Below, in pieces: positions 19,203 through 26,119 of a stretch of 64,000 nucleotides of DNA (positions within the stretch are counted from its first letter, which is position 1; each line of letters begins with the position of its first letter). Origin of the DNA: Acidimicrobiia bacterium (GTDB taxonomy: Bacteria > Actinomycetota > Acidimicrobiia > Acidimicrobiales > Poriferisodalaceae); NCBI GenBank assembly GCA_022826045.1, contig JAJDVQ010000023.1:62001-126000 (forward strand). The letters run 5' to 3'. The position numbers were made by a program, and so were the translations under genes. The notes under the pieces are model-generated. The model saw nothing but the letters and a program-made list of their open reading frames with translations. It searched no databases and had not been told where the DNA came from.

Positions 19203-19487
19203 ATGAGTGCCGGCGCAGTATCCGTTTCCGAGCTGAAGGCCAATCTGTCCCGCTACCTGCGTGAGGCTCGACGAGGCGGCGAGATACAGGTGACTGATCG
19301 CGGCACGCCGGTGGCAAGGCTCGTGCCGCCCGCCGAGGCCGAGGACGAGCACCTCAGCCGGCTGATCAAGTCGGGCGTGCTGCGAGCGGGACACGGAGAT
19401 GCCGCGGCCGTGCTCGACGAGCCTCCCTTGCAGGTCCCGACCAGCCTCTCCGAAGCGTTGGCGGCCGAGAGAGAGGATCGTGTGTGA
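19203..19487 (+). CDS. Phd/VapB-type antitoxin
   Basis: VSVSELKANLSRYLREARRGGEIQVTDRGTPVARLVP. Confidence 0.92.
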   Translation: MSAGAVSVSELKANLSRYLREARRGGEIQVTDRGTPVARLVPPAEAEDEHLSRLIKSGVLRAGHGDAAAVLDEPPLQVPTSLSEALAAEREDRV

Positions 19488-19909
19488 GGTACTGGGATAC
19501 CTCGGCGCTCGTGCCGCTCTTCGTTGCCGAATCGACGTCTGACACGGTGCGGTCGTGGCTGCGTGAGGACAGTGTCATCGCAACATGGGCATGGACGCGC
19601 GTCGAGATCGCAAGCGCCATAGAGCGACGGACGCGTGAGGGCGAACTCTCGCGGGAGCAGCGCCGCAGCATCGCGAGCCGATTGGGCGAATTCAGCGCGA
19701 CATGGCACGAAGCGGTCGAGATGCTGCCCGTGCGTTCGCGTGCGACATCGGTGCTGGCACGGCATCCGCTCCGTGCAGCCGACGCCGCCCAACTCGGCGC
19801 CGCACTGCATGTGCAAGAACAACTCGGCGTCCGGTTGCAGTTCGTGAGCCTGGACCAACGCCTCACCGAAGCAGCCGAACGCGAAGGACTCGCCATCGTC
19901 TCCGCATGA
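19484..19909 (+). CDS. PIN-domain toxin (VapC-like)
   Basis: MRYWDTSALVPLFVAE..., overlaps antitoxin stop (ATGA-like coupling), C-terminal FVSLDQRLTEAAEREGLAIV. Confidence 0.92.
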   Translation: MRYWDTSALVPLFVAESTSDTVRSWLREDSVIATWAWTRVEIASAIERRTREGELSREQRRSIASRLGEFSATWHEAVEMLPVRSRATSVLARHPLRAADAAQLGAALHVQEQLGVRLQFVSLDQRLTEAAEREGLAIVSA

Positions 19910-22601: not shown

Positions 22602-23264
22602 TCAGCCGACTGGCGGGACGGTGACCGGGCGTTCGCCGAACTCGGGACGCTCGGTGCGGGTCTTCTTCAGCTCCCAGAAACCGTCGATGTCCATCATGGC
22701 CACCATGCCGTCCCACAGCTTCAGGGCGTCTTCGCCCTTGGGCGCCCGCGTGATGACCGGGCCGAAGATGCCCACCCGCTCGCCGTCGCTGCGGTCGAGG
22801 GCGATGATCGGCGTGCCGACATCGGTGCCCACGAGCGCCAAGCCCTCGTCCATGCGGGTGCGGATCTCGGCATCCCACTTCTCATCCGCGGCTGCCTTGG
22901 CGTGCTCGGGATCGATGCCCAACTCCTCGAGCGCCTTCGCGATGTCGAAGTCACGGTCACCGTCGTGGTGGATGCGGCTGGCAAAGTCCCAGTAGACGCC
23001 GAACACTGCATCGTCGCCCTCGGCGGCCCGGATCGACTCCATGACCCGCAGCTGACCGTGCGTGCCCACCACCGCGTCATAGTACGGGCTGTCTGTCGGA
23101 GGCTCATTCTTGAAGAGCAGGCTGATCGGCTGCCACTTCACCTTCAGGTTGCGCTCGGAAGCAACGTCATCGACGACCCACCTGGCCGTCACCCAGCACC
23201 AAGGTCAGATGGGGTCTACCCAGAACTCGATCTCGGCGGCTTCGGTTCCCGTGTCAGTTGCCAT
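22602..23264 (-). CDS. Probable selenoprotein: DsbA-fold, Rv2466c/mycothiol-nitroreductase-like protein with UGA at the catalytic Cys position (U-P-W-C)
   Basis: ORF track begins at 23192, but the same frame extends to ATG 23264 through one TGA: MATDTGTEAAEIEFWVDPI-[UGA]-PWCWVTARWVVDDV. Flanking residues match the DsbA/Rv2466c active-site context FWxDPxCPWCW. Confidence 0.8.
23205..23207 (-). other. Candidate recoded UGA (selenocysteine) codon
   Basis: Single in-frame TGA at residue 20, exactly replacing the nucleophilic Cys of CPWC; G-leading hairpin candidates lie immediately downstream. Confidence 0.75.
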
Positions 23265-23365: not shown

Positions 23366-26119
23366 CTACATCGACGAGCCGTCGGGGTTGAGGTAGTCGC
23401 GGGTGATGTGACCCTCGTCGCACAGCGCCTGCCACTCAGCGTCGTCGAGGCCCAGGAGGTCCCGGTAGACGTACTCGTTCGCGTCGCCGAGGATGCCGAT
23501 GGGCCGCCATGGCATCTCGGGGCCGTCCCAGCGCCACTGCCGGCCCGGGTAGCTGTGCCAGCCCTGCTCGACCGAGCCGTTCTCGCGGAACCAGCAGCGA
23601 TCGCTCATCTGCGGGTCGGCACGCAGCTGCGATTCGCGCAGCACCGGCCCGGCGGGCACGCCTGCTTGCTGGCACAGGTGGAAGACCTCAGCGGAGGTGC
23701 GAGCCGAGGTCCAGGCGCTGATGCGCTGGTCGATGTGGTCGTGGTGCTCGAAGCGCCCGGCCAGTGTTGCCAGTCGTTCGTCGTCGGCAAGAGCGGATTG
23801 ATCGGCGTTGTCGGGCGCCCGCGCCGCTCCGTCCGTGCCACTGTCACTGGCATCTCCGACGAGTGAGGACTGGTTTCCGCTGCCGCCGTCGATCAGCCGC
23901 GCCAACCCATGCCAGTGGTCGTCGGTCTCGCAGGCGATCACCGCCCACTCGTCGTCGTGGTCTGGCCGGGCGGGGTCGACAGCGCACGGGTAGCAGCCCT
24001 GCGGAGCGCGCGCGATCGAGCGGTTCCCGACGGGCCGATGGCGAGTGCCGGTGGCCGCAGCGTCGATGAAGTACTCCCCGATGTGCTGCATGACGTTCTC
24101 CGATTGGGAGAACTCGATCAGCTCGCCGACGCCCGTGCCCCCGTTCCCTTCAGCGCCGTCGCGGCGCCGCAGCACGGCCAGTAGTGCAAACGCTGCGGTC
24201 GCGGCACTGGCGGGGTCCATGTGGAAGACAGACGTCAGGCTTGTGGGGTCCTCGTCGGCGTAGCCGCGCAGCCCAGTCAGCCCGCAGAGCGCCTCGAAGT
24301 TGGCGCCGAAGCCGACCCAATCCGAGTACGGGCCTTCGAGGCCCATGGGCGGCATCCGCAGCACAATCGTCCGTGGGTTGACCGAATGCACGGTGTCCCA
24401 GTCGAGGCCCAGCTTCGGCAGCACGCCGAGCGAATTGTTCTCGACGATCACATCGCACTCGCGCACGAGGCGGTGCAGCGTGGCGCGTCCGAGCTCGGTC
24501 CGAGGGTCGAGGGTGCAGCTCAGCTTGCCTCGGGCATGCGCGCTGAACAGGTTCTGGCGGTTCCAGGGGCGACGACCCGGGTCGTGATCGGGATAGCCCG
24601 ACAGAGGGCCCAACTCGGGGTTGATCTCCCGGGGCGGGCGGGGCATCAGTCCGCGGGTGGCCGTCGGGAACACGAACGGATTGTCCACCCGGATGACCTG
24701 CGCTCCGAGGTCTCCCAGATACATCGTGCAGGCAGGCCCGGCCCACACCACCGTCAGGTCCAGCACTCGTATGCCGTCCAGCGGCAGTCCCGCGGGCGGT
24801 CTCGCGCTGGGCGTGACAGGTGCTGGCGGGTTGCTGCTCGGATCATCGCCATGAGCACCTGCTCGCAGCTGCTCGGCGACTGCAGCCCGTATGTCGGCAT
24901 CGTGTTCTCCGAGCAGCGGTGCAGGGCGTGGTGCAGCACGTGCGGGCTGCGGAGAACCTGTCGCTGGCGATCCGTGCACCCGGAACGGTGCGTCGAGCTG
25001 CGTGACGGTGCCGGCTGCAGCATGCTCGACCGGCACGAAGAAGCCGCGAGCCACGAAGTGCGGATCGTCGAGCAGGTCAATGGGCGCATTCAGCGGCGTC
25101 ACGCCCCACTTGTTGACCTGCGCTGCGGCTGCCACCGTGTCCTGGGTGTGCCCTGCCAGCCAAACGAACAATGACGTCTCGACGATGTCGGGCAGATCCG
25201 GATCAGCGATCCAGGCCGGATTCGAGAAGCGCTCCGCCAGCGAAGCGCCGCCGCCCTCATCGCCTCCCAGACCGGCGTCGGTGAGCGTCTTCACCATGCG
25301 CGGCGCCCACGACGGCAAGGTGAACACCAGTGCCCAGCCGTTCGAAGTGGGGTAGAAGCCCACCGGCGACGCACGCTGGGGCTGGCGGGCGTCGCGGCCC
25401 ACGTCCGAGCCGGTGTAGGCCTCATAGAGCAGGTACGACGCCCGGCGGTCGATCGTGCCCGCCTGCGCTTCGAAGGCCGACACGTCGATGTGCGCCGAGC
25501 GCCCGCTGCGCTGGCTCGTCATCAGCGCCGCCAGCGTCGGCACCGCCGCCAGGTTGCCCACCTGGTAGGAGGTGACGTCGCCGCTGAGCTTGACGGGTTC
25601 GCGCTCTTCGATGCCAGTGCCCCACATCGGTCCGCCCATGGCGTACGTCACGATGTCGCTGCCTCGATAGCCGGCCACGGCGTAGGGGCCGGCCTGGCCG
25701 AACGGCGTGATCGAGGTGAGCACGATGCCCGGCCGCAGACCGCACATGGCGTCGTAGCCCAGCCCGACGGCATCGAGATGACCGGGAGCGAATGCCTCGA
25801 TCACGATGTCGGACTCGGCAACGAGCGACCGGACGAATTCGATGTCGCCGGCGTTGGGCGATCCGCTGCCGATGTCGGCGATCACGCTGCGCTTGTTGGT
25901 GTTCAGGTGCAGGAAGAGCGGCGACCGCTCCGAGCTGTCGGTGCCCTGTGGCGGCGTCGCATTCTCGCCCCACGGGCCATGACGGCGCGCCGGATCCCCG
26001 CCGGGCGGCTCCACTTTGATGACATCGGCGCCATGGTCGGCGAAGAGCTTCCCCAGAAACGGACCCGAGATTCCCGAAGCGAGCTCCAGCACCCGTATGC
26101 CGGCCAACAACTGACTCAC
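23366..26119 (-). CDS. Tandem fused CoA-transferase family III protein (two CaiB/BaiF domains)
   Basis: Domain 1 GIRVLELASGISGPFLGKLFADHGADVIKVEPPGGDPAR; domain 2 GIRVLDLTVVWAGPACTMYLGDLGAQVIRVDNP. Confidence 0.92.
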   Translation of the reverse strand: MSQLLAGIRVLELASGISGPFLGKLFADHGADVIKVEPPGGDPARRHGPWGENATPPQGTDSSERSPLFLHLNTNKRSVIADIGSGSPNAGDIEFVRSLVAESDIVIEAFAPGHLDAVGLGYDAMCGLRPGIVLTSITPFGQAGPYAVAGYRGSDIVTYAMGGPMWGTGIEEREPVKLSGDVTSYQVGNLAAVPTLAALMTSQRSGRSAHIDVSAFEAQAGTIDRRASYLLYEAYTGSDVGRDARQPQRASPVGFYPTSNGWALVFTLPSWAPRMVKTLTDAGLGGDEGGGASLAERFSNPAWIADPDLPDIVETSLFVWLAGHTQDTVAAAAQVNKWGVTPLNAPIDLLDDPHFVARGFFVPVEHAAAGTVTQLDAPFRVHGSPATGSPQPARAAPRPAPLLGEHDADIRAAVAEQLRAGAHGDDPSSNPPAPVTPSARPPAGLPLDGIRVLDLTVVWAGPACTMYLGDLGAQVIRVDNPFVFPTATRGLMPRPPREINPELGPLSGYPDHDPGRRPWNRQNLFSAHARGKLSCTLDPRTELGRATLHRLVRECDVIVENNSLGVLPKLGLDWDTVHSVNPRTIVLRMPPMGLEGPYSDWVGFGANFEALCGLTGLRGYADEDPTSLTSVFHMDPASAATAAFALLAVLRRRDGAEGNGGTGVGELIEFSQSENVMQHIGEYFIDAAATGTRHRPVGNRSIARAPQGCYPCAVDPARPDHDDEWAVIACETDDHWHGLARLIDGGSGNQSSLVGDASDSGTDGAARAPDNADQSALADDERLATLAGRFEHHDHIDQRISAWTSARTSAEVFHLCQQAGVPAGPVLRESQLRADPQMSDRCWFRENGSVEQGWHSYPGRQWRWDGPEMPWRPIGILGDANEYVYRDLLGLDDAEWQALCDEGHITRDYLNPDGSSM

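Follow-up and report, generated by a model that had tools for sequence, protein, structure and literature searches.

A predicted selenocysteine codon in an Rv2466c-like gene

The window (the whole stretch of 64,000 nucleotides analysed here) carries on its minus strand, at 22602..23264, a complete gene for an Rv2466c-like oxidoreductase of the DsbA fold, 220 residues long, which is almost certainly a selenoprotein gene in which the UGA at codon 20 is predicted to be read as selenocysteine (Sec). From the likely ATG start codon (23262..23264, minus strand), the frame runs from 23264 to 22602 as MATDTGTEAAEIEFWVDPI-TGA-PWCWVTARW and onwards to a terminal TGA stop (22602..22604, minus strand); relatives likewise have their start a few residues ahead of the conserved (I/V)EFWVDP. 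The internal TGA (23205..23207, minus strand) lies in the local peptide EFWVDPI-U-PWCWVTARW and is the single interruption in 220 residues, while the resolving Cys of the U-P-W-C motif, residue 23, is encoded by a TGC (23196..23198, minus strand) and is invariant in 82 Sec representatives. Calling ORFs with translation table 11 yields instead a 196-residue ORF that begins at a GTG at 23192 (22602..23192, minus strand) and lacks both the first strand and the active site. The initial annotation had read the same frame and placed the TGA at 23207-23205, had remarked that the called ORF begins only at 23192, and had warned that standard ORF calling would shorten the gene and remove its active site; our re-reading of the minus strand bears out each of these points.

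Translated through the TGA, the protein matches PF22234 (Rv2466c-like) along the entire profile (149.8 bits against a gathering threshold of 27, E=1.2e-43, residues 19-201, profile positions 1-180 of 180), in agreement with the family originally proposed. PF01323 is also matched (E=7e-9), and no NCBIfam model matched the full-length protein. A sequence comparison also matched it to crystal structures of Rv2466c (E=8e-41 to 2e-35), and the TGA falls on the first Cys of their C-P-W-C, which confirms the earlier placement of the TGA at the nucleophilic Cys. The nucleophile of Rv2466c is Cys19, and Cys22 acts as its resolving Cys (as cited in PMC8280269). The nearest Cys homologues carry C-P-W/F-C at the position of the U-P-W-C found here. 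The host genome also encodes a Cys paralogue of the same Pfam family (L012, C9:8772-9416; 38% identity), which differs from the selenoprotein in having the motif C-P-F-A, with neither Sec nor a resolving Cys, and in branching in a separate clade of the tree.

Regarding the genomic context, no order-wide conserved neighbour that would name a substrate was found: the amidohydrolase and CaiB genes that lie downstream and upstream, respectively, accompany the selenoprotein gene mainly in the family to which the window belongs. The 917-residue ORF at 23366-26119 (minus strand) resembles a tandem CaiB/BaiF-type CoA-transferase in which two domains are fused, and an ORF at 19484-19909 (plus strand) looks like a PIN-domain (VapC-like) protein.

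Conservation of the active-site TGA across the order

The reading frame, the family, the Sec/Cys column, the Sec machinery, the conserved SECIS and the conservation across the order are established computationally. The order was sampled with 398 genomes, 321 of which had a match to the protein, and the active-site codon was read from the retrieved sequences. This codon is TGA in 87 of the 398 genomes, distributed over 11 families and down to about 50-60% protein identity, and TGC or TGT in other genomes. The homologues that the initial annotation had proposed to align therefore carry Cys codons at the Sec column, and never Trp or Ser. The last codon varies among TGA, TAG and TAA in the relatives, unlike the active-site TGA, and the codons on either side of the latter are under strong protein-level constraint. 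In the phylum-wide sample, also of 398 genomes, four matches were obtained outside the order at E <= 1e-50, none of them with an internal stop.

In a public genome collection, the pattern DP-x-TGA-PWCW was found in at least 119 stretches; among the matches listed, about 109 belong to the present family and about 10 fit the pattern by chance in unrelated sequences, as judged from their translations. The carriers, again among the matches listed, are Acidimicrobiia/Acidimicrobiales, including records labelled Microthrixaceae, Ilumatobacter, Candidatus Microthrix and marine Acidimicrobiaceae. A second and very divergent Sec-bearing subfamily of PF22234, with the motif FYFDPL-U-PWCWQTARWV, was also observed, mostly in Acidimicrobiia MAGs (L109, L114, L117, L120, L121, L146, L154, L161, L168 and L169).

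There is practically no chance that the gene is a decaying pseudogene or a sequencing error, in which the TGA would be a nonsense mutation and the protein dead or started at GTG 23192: the shortened ORF from standard calling and the draft state of the genome (104 contigs) could be read in that way, but exactly TGA, and not a mixture of lesions, is conserved in 87 genomes of 11 families with the frame intact and constrained on both sides, and a start at 23192 would remove the family active site in every TGA genome. The view of the initial annotation that this is recoding and not decay thus holds, and the misreading of a TGC or TGT at 23205-23207 that it had allowed for is excluded by the recurrence of TGA in many independent assemblies.

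Selenocysteine machinery of the host

The host genome (3.64 Mb, 91% complete) contains all four components of the Sec machinery that the initial annotation had proposed to search for. selA (386 bits), the adjoining selB (268 bits) and selD (352 bits) score above their curated cut-offs, and a tRNA-Sec, located on the selA/selB contig, scores 67 bits, also above its cut-off, and is called by ARAGORN as tRNA-SeC(tca) with the anticodon TCA. The host selD (L022, G000:C90:12620-13573, minus strand) has an in-frame TGA of its own, in HGAG-U-ACKL, the usual Sec site of SelD; selD is thus a selenoprotein gene too. Across the order, a strong selA match is present in 84 of the 87 TGA genomes against 243 of the 398 overall (Fisher P=1.6e-17, a value that ignores relatedness, with counts inflated by kinship). 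The three TGA-bearing genomes without a selA match are just 73-76% complete.

A conserved SECIS-type hairpin downstream of the UGA

A SECIS-type hairpin lies at +15..+33 after the UGA (23172..23190, minus strand), with 7 bp here and 8 bp in most relatives, an apical loop AGGUG at 23183-23179 and a conserved G at +23 (23182). Its footprint is visible in the codons of the 82 Sec representatives (less than 90% identical at the DNA level): synonymous codon choice at positions 5-11 after the UGA is strongly skewed, with GTG for Val5 in 75 of 79 sequences, ACG for Thr6 in 71 of 82, only GCC or GCT for Ala7 and only CGT, AGG or CGG for Arg8, while usage elsewhere in the genes is broad. The conserved pairs are G15-C33, A16-U32, C17-G31, G18-C30, G19-U29, C20-G28, C21-G27 and (C/A)22-G26, closing on the loop G23-U/G24-U25. 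Pair 18-30 occurs as GC, AU, UA, CG, GU and UG by way of third codon positions, and pair 15-33 as GC, AU and GU, plus CG in the divergent Sec member L182, which keeps all 8 pairs on a largely different stem sequence. These compensatory changes are mostly synonymous.

The structure was also supported by covariation in 30 sequences, where 97.5% of cells are paired, three pairs are changed on both sides and none of 500 shuffles reaches the observed score (a result inflated by relatedness), and control structures slid along the same sequences pair at only 17-59%. Shuffling synonymous codons while keeping the proteins and the column codon usage gave 622.7 +/- 1.4 paired cells against the 638 observed, and the mean hairpin MFE is -12.6 against -7.4 under synonymous resampling. 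Codons within the hairpin show 18% synonymous change and those flanking it 41-44%, and RNAalifold recovers the same +15..+33 hairpin unprompted. The published bSECIS constraints are a loop of 3-9 nt, an upper stem of 4-16 bp, a G in the first two loop positions, a distance of 16-37 nt from the UGA and an MFE <= -7.5 kcal/mol (PMC13188914); the element in the window falls within all of them, with a 5-nt loop (AGGUG, G second and then G again), 7 bp, a spacing of 21 nt and -11.7 kcal/mol.

The initial annotation had pointed to two other hairpins, and neither is conserved: CUGG-GUGACGG-CCAG requires CCAG at +19..+22, where most relatives have CCCG, and CGUC-GAU-GACG requires a run of Asp/Glu codons that is variable in relatives. 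The conserved hairpin lies between them.

These observations bear on the idea that the UGA is recoded as another residue, namely Trp (code 4), or Cys or Ser by an unusual UGA-reading tRNA. Indeed, bacteria have UGA-reading tRNAs besides tRNA-Sec, and the activity of SelA is here predicted from its sequence. Nevertheless, a TGA serves as the stop of this gene too, so that the codon has no general sense meaning, canonical selA, selB, selD and tRNA-Sec are present in the genome, the homologues have Cys and never Trp or Ser at the column, and a SECIS-type hairpin is conserved that ordinary suppressor decoding does not need; such recoding is thus very improbable.

Proposed function

The substrate, the electron donor and a role in oxidative-stress defence are proposed by analogy with the Rv2466c family. 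The protein would be a cytosolic DsbA-fold reductase of the Rv2466c (DsbA-Mrx1) family, in whose synthesis SelB-bound Sec-tRNA(UCA), guided by the short bacterial SECIS at +15..+33, would decode the UGA at codon 20. The selenolate of U-P-W-C would then attack disulfides, the most likely targets being protein-mycothiol or other low-molecular-weight mixed disulfides; the intermediate would be resolved by Cys23 or by mycothiol, and the electrons would come from NADPH via mycothione reductase. A Sec nucleophile would be expected to react more readily and to withstand over-oxidation better. The characterised relatives Rv2466c and NCgl2478 reduce mycothiol mixed disulfides, with a preference for MSH/Mtr/NADPH as the electron source, and provide protection from oxidants (PMC8280269).

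In the host, two MshC-like ligases were found (L211, G000:C84:55729; L212, C97:62746), which score 413 and 410 bits for MshC against an equivalog cut-off of 485, and fit MshC better than CysRS (413 vs 352 and 410 vs 341 bits). An Mtr-like reductase (L214, G000:C90:9309-10796) is recognised as two segments scoring 301+280 bits, the equivalog cut-off being 636. Since these MshC-like and Mtr-like genes are present but below the equivalog cut-offs, mycothiol use by the host is likely from its gene content, though not proved. The Mtr-like gene contains a repeat-like insert (RGGAA...) and is situated about 1.8 kb from selD on the same contig. An MshC match with one TGA was considered as a further selenoprotein and rejected, as this stop is the one that terminates the reading frame.

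Whether the Sec protein works with mycothiol is less firmly indicated than its Sec residue. Its partner could instead be thioredoxin or a different thiol, and it might then serve as a general disulfide reductase or an arsenate/peroxide-related reductase, for instance; the low scores of the mycothiol genes would fit this, as would the Sec forms of PF22234 in MAGs of Desulfobacterales (L144, L174 and L201). To our knowledge, Desulfobacterales are not known for mycothiol. Those sequences, with the motif FYWDPV-U-PWCWITSRWM, seem out of place under a family name that reads 'mycothiol-dependent'. However, for both ligases the MshC score clearly exceeds the CysRS score, the genome has an Mtr-like reductase and the characterised relatives prefer MSH/Mtr/NADPH (PMC8280269). 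We consider a function apart from mycothiol possible but somewhat doubtful, and a mycothiol-linked disulfide reductase moderately probable.

Evolution of the Sec clade

In our reconstruction, 72 Sec sequences are held by a clade of 80 rows (98/90) that branches from within a Cys family; four Cys groups are in turn nested in this clade. This topology seems to fit one gain of Sec in the clade followed by about four reversions to Cys, and by the starred branches no fewer than three changes are needed in total. Cys homologues in which the peptide around the site is the same retain 4-6 of the 8 hairpin pairs, with the sole exception of L056, from a selA-positive genome (G135:C1), whose active-site codon is TGC and whose hairpin keeps 8 of 8 pairs at -15.9 kcal/mol. 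This hairpin is likely a fossil SECIS left by a recent change from Sec to Cys. We give about even weight to the overall reading that these proteins are the first recognised Sec form of the mycothiol-dependent DsbA-Mrx1 (Rv2466c) reductases, with one origin in Acidimicrobiia, a spread over much of the order, several losses to Cys and at least one fossil SECIS.

The clade offers a clean natural series of Sec/Cys exchange, comprising Sec members, several apparent Cys reversions and one Cys gene with an intact SECIS hairpin. The predicted nucleophile is Sec across much of a widespread and mostly uncultured actinobacterial order, in a family known from prodrug activation in M. tuberculosis and from oxidative-stress defence, and gene callers that read UGA as a stop would lose the active site there.

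Relation to known selenoproteins and to the Rv2466c family

DsbA-like UxxC selenoproteins have been reported from metagenomes since 2005, with nine sequences of COG2761 in the Sargasso Sea (2005), DsbA 1-3 in GOS (2008) and 41 organisms in the ISME J (2016), according to these surveys (PMC1088965, PMC2398784, PMC5029168), and a 2026 review still has the entry 'DsbA-like form 1, UxxC'. The present protein is therefore a well-resolved addition to known selenoproteins and involves no new mechanism. Of the 'probable new selenoprotein' that had been annotated, the selenoprotein stands on the machinery, the conservation of the TGA and the Cys homologues, while 'new' applies rather to the subfamily. 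The survey passages on DsbA-like selenoproteins do not name Rv2466c or mycothiol, our literature search returned no paper joining Rv2466c with selenocysteine, and the papers on selenocysteine and Acidimicrobi- look unrelated by title and abstract.

The proteins of the 2005-2026 surveys share with ours a Sec in the UxxC of a PF01323-type DsbA protein. The survey tables name COG2761 or PF01323 only, and some of the earlier marine DsbA-like sequences may belong to the present clade. With the DsbA-Mrx1 cluster of Rv2466c, NCgl2339 and NCgl2478 (PF22234), the protein shares the fold, the length, the position of C-P-W/F-C and the C-terminal signature FGPV...ELK(R/K)TRT, and differs from it in the replacement of the nucleophilic Cys by a predicted Sec (TGA) and in the SECIS hairpin that follows.
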